From Chrysoperla carnea (taxonomy: Eukaryota; Arthropoda; Insecta; Neuroptera; Chrysopidae): DNA of 64,000 nt. Where the stretch lies: NCBI RefSeq assembly GCF_905475395.1, contig NC_058341.1, forward strand, positions 67,835,501 to 67,899,500. The letters run 5' to 3'. The notes beneath the pieces were generated by a model. It had not been told where the DNA came from, made no database searches, and saw only the letters and a program-made list of their open reading frames with translations. Positions 22,401-27,770 of this stretch are shown piece by piece. Position 1 is the first letter of the stretch. Each line of letters begins with the position of its first letter. A program made the translations under genes and the position numbers.

Positions 22401-25400
22401 GTCCTTTTCATGTTCAATTTGACTGAATTAAAACAACAGTGCTGTTCTCAGCTCAGTACTATCATTGACCACAAATAAAAAAAGCGTCACCAGCGATACT
22501 TTTTCTAATCTCAGATAAGAGATATCCACGTTGTGATCAATTCTTTTCCTTTTTTTGTTATTGAATTTTCTTTTTAGTTTTTGTTATCATGAAAGAAAAA
22601 ATGACGCTAAACGGCGCCGACTCTTTATGGAAGTGTTATTTTGATCTTGAGTTTTCTTCGTTTAAATTCTATATACAGGGTAACCCATTGTAATCGATGA
22701 ACCCAAATTATCTTCTAAAATACTTACACTACCAAAAAAATGTTTCGTACAAATATTATTCATATTAAAATGGGACATCATATTCTAGCGCCAGATTTGA
22801 TCTACATCTTCTGTATCCTTTAATAGTTAACTCATATCCTTAACAATAAGGGATAGAAAAACACTTAAAGTTGAACCTCATAAAAAAACAAATTATCCCA
22901 AAAATGTTAGCTTTCGGAGGAAATGCGACTTAAAAATATGTCATTATTGCATTTAATCAAAAGAAAATACGCTTAAAGTTCGTCGATAATTGTGGGTCAA
23001 AGGCATGGACATAAGCTAGTGTCCTCTATTGCCCATGACAATTTTTGTCTAAAGCATTTTTCTTCGCAACTCTGAAAGCTAACGTTTTTGGAAAAATATT
23101 TTAAACAAATTTGTTAATGAGGTTCTACTTTCTAATTTAAAGTGTTATTGTATCTCCTACTGTTAAGGATTTGAGTTTTCTGTTGAAGTATCCAGAAGAC
23201 GTAGATCAAATCTGACGCTAGAATATGATGTCCCACTTTAATCTGAATAATTTTTGTACGAAACATTTTTTTGTAGTGTAAGTTTTTTAGAAGATATTTG
23301 GGTCCATCGATAACAATGGGTGACCCTGTATATAAATTTAATATGTAAACTTATAATTCTACCTGTTTTTGTTTTAGACCGTGAATCACTGGGTAACTGG
23401 TTGGATTGATTGGAATTTAGCGTTAGACGAACAAGGTGGACCAAACTGGGTACAAAATTATGTCGATTCGCCTATTATAGTCAATAAAACTGGGAATGAG
23501 TTTTATAAACAACCGATGTTTTATGCAATGGGTCATGTATCCAAATTTATACCATCAAATTCATTTCGAATTGGAAATCGAGCGAAATTACCGAGAAATT
23601 TATTCGTTTTGACAGTAGAGCGGCCAGCGGAACAGCGCTATGTGGTTGTAATTCTAAATAAGTAATTAATTTTATTCATAATTTTTAACAGGTATTGGGC
23701 TAGTGGCAAAAACCTTAGAACGATTTCATTGTTCGGCAAATGATGATAATAAATGTGATTATAATAGATTTCAGTAAATCAAGTAAATCTGTCCTCCGTT
23801 TTGAAATACCATGACACCCCATCATATATGATCCGATAGATTTCTAGTTTTTGAATCAATATCTCAAACATTTTTATCATTCCTTAATATTTAATGAGCA
23901 GGGCTGCAACGCTAAGAAAATTTATTAATTAATTAGATATTAATTTTAAAAGCGTGCACGGTGTGCATAAGTATACAAGACATTGAGTATGTGCAATCGA
24001 AAGCTTTTTTATTTCACTTTAAAATGTGCTTGTACTGACTTTATACGAACTTCTAAGACTGTGTTACAAACTTAAGACAAAGCAAAATAGACATTTTTCA
24101 CTTTAAACTGCCGCATTTTCTTAAATAATGACCTTGCAGAAATTAACCTCAACTCATTCGGCAGACTCAGACAAACAGACTGCCAACCGGGAATGGAGTA
24201 ATTAATATATTTTATGAACATCTACACCAAAATTTTGTTCGTAGCATCAATATTTTTAAACGTTACAAACTTGGAACTAAAGTTAATATACCTTTTACTG
24301 GAGTAAATCTAAGCAAAAAAAGGCTGTTATATGGATTAAAAGTTCGAGCAACGAAACTTTGGGGTTTTTCTTTTCACATCAAAATAAGTATTTTTTGAAA
24401 TTTTTTACTTTCCCGGAGTGGTGCAACATGTTTAAAAAACAAAATGGCGTCAAAAATGAAATTTTTTTCAGAAATTTTATCATTTTTATTTTATATTCGC
24501 AAAAGGAGGCATCGGTGCATATCCAAATTTGGTAGGTTTGTAGTACATGTTAAGAACTACTCCTCATAATTTTTTGGTGGGGTTTCGTCCCGTCCCCTCC
24601 CAGTTATATATATATGTATACATACATATGGTAAAACAGTTCATTTGACTATAACTTGAAAAATATTCGATTGACTTTAATGAAACTAATATCAATAGTA
24701 GGTTTTATTACTTACAACTTTCGGTTAAAATTTTAGCGAAATCCGTTAAATAGTTCGGCCAAAATTTCCAATTTAGGGAATTGTTTAAAATGGCTGCCAT
24801 TTTATGCCATTTTGTCCTACGAGGTTAATTTTTTTTTTAAATTGTAGCATTTTTTATTATCTTTCGATTTTATAATAAGTGGCTTACCCGTAAAATGACT
24901 CCTTGATCCATATTTTTGCGAAAAACGGAAAATTTAGCACTTTCTGGAAATAATTGTTTGGGGGGTGTATGGACTGGCTTTGGGGGGTGTTTTTTGCTTT
25001 GGCATGAGAAAACTATTTTTAAAAGAGGTCTATATGGTTTAAAGCAAAATTTTTAAGTTTTAACCCCCGCGCTGTAAGGGGGAAGGGGTGTATGAAATAA
25101 ATGTGTCTTAAAAGATTTTAAAAAGAGGTCAAAATAGTTTAAAATGCTAAAGTAACCCAAAATTTTAGATGCTTTTATTAATATAGCACTTTTTACAACA
25201 TCCACCCCTTCCCCACCCGCTTTCATATTTTTTGCAAATTCAAAATTTTTATGACGTATAAAGAGGTTTTGGCCCAAATAAGTACACCCCCTAAAAATAT
25301 TACAATTGTTTTTGATAATCTATTCCAAAATTCGAGATCAGCGACCCCAAAAACCCCTTTATACGTCATAAAAATTTTGAATTTGCAAAAAATATGAAAG

Positions 25401-27770: not shown

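Follow-up and report, generated by a model that had tools for sequence, protein, structure and literature searches.

A 2-kb palindrome in an intron of Gba1 in Chrysoperla carnea belongs to a mobile family with homogenised arms and, in some copies, inverted centres

The palindrome and its setting in Gba1

The window (the whole 64-kb stretch of Chrysoperla carnea DNA analysed here) contains Gba1 exons on either side of a long intron. The upstream exon, which ends at 23661, matches the GH30 domain (Pfam PF02055, E 6.9e-22) and solved lysosomal acid glucosylceramidases (best E 2.3e-27). It is followed by a GT at 23662; the corresponding AG is at 27658 and the next exon starts at 27659. This downstream exon shows GH30C similarity at 19.8 bits, just under the Pfam cut-off of 22 bits. 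The preliminary description had assigned a palindrome to the last intron of Gba1: the intron position stands, while the word 'last' depends on the sub-cut-off GH30C match and on reading by eye.

Comparison of the window with itself identified, far above chance expectation, an inverted repeat with two arms of 956 nt (24315-25270 and 25350-26305), 99% complementary and separated by 79 nt, with its axis at about 25310. This agrees with the near-perfect palindrome of about 2 kb described earlier around the same axis, and provides a figure for arm identity. The repeat makes up most of a longer element whose components are listed in Table 1. The two termini of the element are unlike each other (TACTGGAGTAAAT... 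on the left and ...ATTTCACTCTACTA on the right), and the outermost 34 bp on the left and 25 bp on the right lie outside the good palindrome, with no likeness save a short imperfect terminal repeat. The commonest length in the family is 2044 bp; the window copy is 24 bp shorter, owing to a deletion at the inner left arm and centre. Its arms differ by 0.11% over arm positions 36-959. Seven of its eight arm differences fall at 969-985, beside the central deletion, and the differences that remain there are probably due to misalignment.

Table 1. Features of the element, its surroundings and the second copy in the window
Feature	Coordinates	Strand	Basis
Gba1 intron (GT...AG) containing the element, about 4 kb	23662..27658	+	GH30 and structure matches, reading by eye
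Older repeat X, left flank of the element; resumes at 26319	24168..24295	.	Window repeat comparison
Left target-site duplication, TTT	24293..24295	.	Element-end pairing
Entire palindromic transposon (2020 bp), non-autonomous	24296..26315	+	End pairing, copy comparison
Unique left end (TACTGGAGTAAATCTAAGC...)	24296..24329	+	End comparison among copies
Left arm	24330..25270	+	Inverted-repeat alignment
Central spacer (in forward orientation here)	25271..25349	+	Orientation compared with the unique ends
Right arm, reverse complement of the left arm	25350..26290	-	Inverted-repeat alignment
Unique right end (...GGCGTAATTTCACTCTACTA)	26291..26315	+	End comparison; counted genome-wide
Right target-site duplication, TTT	26316..26318	.	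Element-end pairing
Older left-truncated copy 2; spacer inverted relative to its own right end	40451..42328	+	87-90% identity to a family copy

When the flanks of the element are joined, they form an unbroken older repeat (X in Table 1) resembling the X copies elsewhere in the window. This restoration of X, together with the target-site duplications (TSDs) and the many genomic copies described below, identifies the palindrome as a transposon insertion and not a local accident.

Repeat X is itself a dense older family of about 550 bp, with many copies and fragments in the 64-kb window (for example, at 1881-2438, 4356-4961, 6781-7199, 29742-30177, 38152-38734, 39397-39963 and 51944-52499, among others). 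Further inverted repeats with arms of 81-86% identity surround the Gba1 exons (22733-23273, 21332-22028, 28682-28870 and 29302-29667) and are probably older MITE-like palindromes.

The longest stop-to-stop frame in this copy is 88 aa and it includes no transposase gene, in line with the earlier remark that no coding capacity was seen. The double-stranded stem of about 1 kb that had been expected in the pre-mRNA also appears in the predicted fold of the transcript strand, with 967 pairs and -1615 kcal/mol (-383 to -414 for three single-base shuffles). Such a stem follows from any palindrome of this kind and has no bearing on Dicer-2, ADAR or function; a putative role of the intronic hairpin RNA as a Dicer-2 or ADAR substrate is plausible.

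Copies of the element in the genome

The 559 Mb genome was searched with the left arm. This gave 1299 candidates, the best 40 of which were scored; of the 47 matches listed, nearly all are at least 99% identical to the query. The unique right end was found at about 491 places (240 + 251) with at most two mismatches, compared with none for a reversed-pattern control. Two samples were then paired end to end: 20 places with left-arm matches and their flanks, some of them picked for a partial second arm, and the first 20 places in the list of right ends. Complete pairing was obtained for 20/20 and 16/20 of these, respectively, giving 37 paired elements with the window copy. All 37 carry perfect 3-bp target duplications, comprising 20 different sequences, and 16 of them have the commonest length. 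The sampled copies differ from one another by only about 2%: the family is young. The surmise that the palindrome is mobile is thus supported. No left end was found in the approximately 3 kb examined upstream of L032, L039, L042 and L047, which appear from their sequence to be truncated copies.

The shorter copies each have breakpoints of their own. In four of the 11 paired elements that are not full length (L010, L013, L020 and L029) the left breakpoint falls at reference positions 981-992, the boundary between arm and centre, and the truncated L039 starts at 1066, on the opposite side of the centre. This clustering is suggestive only, three of the four coming from the sample chosen for a matching left arm. 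Some of these one-sided deletions could have arisen by breakage at the tip of the hairpin.

At one place (L035, ending at locus position 3201) the element is reduced to 63 bp, consisting of the two unique ends alone within a perfect ATA duplication. This suggests that two ends suffice for transposition, unless L035 was shortened after insertion. L020 had been considered as a larger, autonomous element but is in fact a copy of the palindrome with a deletion and inserted sequence: about 2.3 kb of other DNA interrupts it at element positions ~1068-3414. A 229-aa frame in L020, the sole frame scanned, gave no Pfam match and looks coiled-coil-like by eye.

The window also contains the second, diverged copy that had been pointed out earlier (copy 2 in Table 1), which has kept its right end and lost its left. 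A 138-codon open frame (40225-40641) spans its truncated end.

Likeness of the arms and orientation of the centre

Arm-by-arm alignment was carried out on 26 full-length copies (1990-2060 bp), 16 of them found by left-arm similarity (window copy included) and 10 by their right end; the 11 other paired elements were omitted. Mean divergence between the two arms of a copy is 0.69%, compared with 1.85% between left arms, 2.11% between right arms and 1.99% between left and right arms of different copies. Variants present in exactly two arms are nearly always found in both arms of a single copy (98/104). When arms were re-paired at random (n=200), the number of such mirrored variants averaged 3.7 and never exceeded 25. 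Over arm positions 136-885, the nearest of the 51 other arms is the copy's own partner for 47 of the 52 arms, ties included (45 uniquely); the remaining five are nearer to an arm of another copy. The arms are therefore near-identical for two reasons, the youth of the family and homogenisation inside each copy, and the alternative posed in the preliminary description, recent origin or gene conversion, is answered by both.

Homogenisation is incomplete, since 102 private changes occur in a single arm. The balance differs between the samples: mirrored changes exceed single-arm changes among the 10 copies found by right end (68 and 35) and are fewer among the 16 found by left-arm similarity (30 and 67). 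It also varies along the arm. With clusters collapsed, 80/133 changes at positions 136-885 are mirrored against 5/34 at the edges (p=1.8e-6), and the innermost 100 bp are the least homogenised (3/25). A mid-arm excess of this kind is predicted if exchange requires homology on both sides.

These results were re-examined in a stricter set, from which the copies with a central deletion (the window copy, L021 and L041) and positions from 960 up, where the alignment is doubtful, were removed. In this set 88/90 two-arm variants are mirrored, divergence between the arms of a copy falls to 0.47%, and mirrored changes account for 71/117 in mid-arm against 4/25 at the edges (p=4.7e-5). For the right-end sample alone (nine copies, without L041) every two-arm variant is mirrored (70/70), but the mirrored share does not differ significantly between mid-arm (52/70) and edges (5/11; p=0.075). 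No GC bias was seen in the arm changes of the 26 copies.

Copy 2 gives a view of an older element. Its 763 aligned sites include 30 mirrored differences, 37 confined to the left arm, 18 confined to the right and 4 where the arms differ in both ways. Homogenisation thus lags in this copy (55 one-arm against 30 mirrored differences), which suggests that it fades in old copies. The mirrored differences may in part be subfamily differences.

In six of the 26 full-length copies the centre points the opposite way with respect to the unique ends. Adding two shorter copies makes this 8/28; the nine other paired elements are not scorable. The inversion extends to linked sites in the inner arm. A marker at 969A/976G is present on the left only in 11 forward copies and on the right only in four inverted ones (p=7e-4). 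The opposite arrangement never occurs; 10 copies have the marker on neither side and one has it on both. Comparison of marker haplotypes places the inverted centres on several backgrounds: inverted L027 shares its haplotype with the forward window copy, L028 with L019 and L026 with L018, while the match is close but not exact between L031 and L037 and between L024 and the window copy. For inverted L012, no forward copy with a matching haplotype was found among the 26. With inverted centres on several haplotypes, flips have apparently occurred independently more than once, unless there is also exchange of sequence from copy to copy.

Explanations and related systems

We consider it likely that the family is a young, high-copy, non-autonomous cut-and-paste transposon with 3-bp TSDs, whose arms recombine to give both conversion and centre-flipping crossovers. 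A transposase encoded elsewhere would mobilise the element. Once inserted, the two arms of about 950 bp of a single copy would recombine with each other: events without crossover would carry mutations from one arm to the other (gene conversion), while crossovers would flip the centre of about 70 bp. In this view the agent would be homologous recombination and not switching of templates by a polymerase, and it would operate at the inserted site and not solely during transposition.

The main rival is template switching by the polymerase between the arms during replication, which could homogenise the arms as well as flip the centre; we regard it as unlikely, though a serious competitor. In yeast, template switching at short inverted repeats is reported both to homogenise the arms and to invert the spacer (PMC8604942), and it has been proposed as a mechanism that maintains RNA hairpins (PMC8794818). 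The lack of a visible GC bias would also suit it. However, the arms given in the yeast passages are of 7-16 bp (PMC8604942), whereas mirrored changes here extend over hundreds of base pairs. The edge effect of about 100 bp fits a homology-dependent exchange, although repeated switching is still compatible with it.

A second explanation, which we judge rather improbable, ties arm copying to transposition: whenever an element moves, snap-back synthesis would renew one arm with the other as template, and inserted copies would only decay. Mirrored private changes could then stem from source lineages (a mirrored change could indeed date from before insertion), and the mostly one-arm changes of copy 2 would be expected. 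Yet snap-back from the tip predicts that the centre should be the best homogenised part, and it is the innermost 100 bp that are the least. Moreover, some sites that are mirrored in related copies have one-arm states (for example, site 534 in L011 and L012), although recurrent mutation could also explain these.

That the likeness of the arms is an artefact of assembly or polishing is very improbable: the paired copies all have matching TSDs and their sequences differ between loci, the arms retain differences, and the centres invert along with linked inner-arm sites. Recurrence of the palindromic structure at many loci likewise makes it improbable that the second arm of the window copy is an assembly artefact. 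Least probable of all, to the point of being scarcely credible, is that the arms are kept alike by selection acting on base pairing, with compensatory changes in a functional hairpin RNA, as the long and nearly perfect predicted stem might suggest, because transitions are no commoner among mirrored than among single-arm changes (49/98 against 52/102), leaving no excess of G-U-tolerated routes, many loci behave alike, and spacer inversion is outside its predictions.

Classification is based on the ends, the TSDs and the overall structure, no autonomous partner or transposase having been found for the family. PIF/Harbinger elements generate 3-bp TSDs of the form TWA. Membership of this group was rejected, as TTA or TAA occurs in only 10 of the 37 paired elements and the TSDs are mostly not TWA. 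The genome contains 73 matches to DDE_Tnp_4 (PF13359), none of which lies near the listed copies in a comparison by eye with 100 of the 491 right ends and the left-arm list. CACTA/EnSpm elements (CMC group) also have 3-bp TSDs, as does this family, and termini starting with CACTA or CACTG; the family termini, read inward, are instead TACTGGAGT and TAGTAGAGT.

MITEs are non-coding elements with TIRs and TSDs that occur as many young, similar copies. The family shares its lack of coding capacity and its many young copies with generic MITEs but differs in being about 2 kb long and almost wholly palindromic. As in foldback elements, long inverted repeats form most of its length, and the window element is one copy of a foldback-like MITE with long inverted repeats. 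Foldback elements of the Mutator type were excluded (the TSD is 3 bp, not 8-10 bp). Like the family, Foldback (FB), Galileo and Tetris of Drosophila have long inverted repeats around a middle, frequent non-coding copies and deletion derivatives. Tetris is given a TSD of 8-10 bp and assigned to Mutator by its authors, who suggest that in two of its three complete copies the internal tandem repeats have been homogenised (PMC4079207). For Galileo, long TIRs are proposed to be sites to which recombination and conversion are drawn (PMC3573991). Unlike these cases, arm homogenisation per site and spacer flips are measured here over 26 copies.

The most familiar cases of recombination between the arms of palindromes are sex-chromosome loci. 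For the human Y palindrome P6, gene conversion between arms is described, with inversions being rarer (PMC3723533); on the proposed reading, the family resembles P6 and other sex-chromosome palindromes in combining the two. It differs from them in having arms of only about 1 kb, in being mobile, in its hundreds of dispersed copies and in showing no GC bias; inverted forms are also common here, unlike in P6, although it is copies rather than events that are counted. Many reported cases in which long and short inverted repeats have been homogenised, and spacer inversion between short ones in yeast, are mentioned in PMC8604942, but here the inverted repeat is itself mobile and has hundreds of copies. 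Within the portions of the open-licence literature covered, we found no study that quantifies, for a MITE-like family, conversion between the arms of a copy and flipping of its centre.

If arm recombination is indeed responsible, hundreds of dispersed units may convert and flip in place. Each insertion would then be self-correcting and have two states, and a near-perfect source of intronic dsRNA would be kept; we put this forward tentatively, as possible rather than probable. Palindromes of about 1 kb at hundreds of independent sites would constitute a replicated natural assay of the rate and edge effects of conversion, of the conversion-to-crossover ratio and of breakage at the tip. They would also allow a direct test of the idea, put forward for Galileo, that recombination and conversion are drawn to long terminal repeats.

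As a separate observation on the genome, five exact tandem copies of TTAGG gave 458 matches, compared with two for a control; among the listed places on one contig (C1), many are in short internal arrays.
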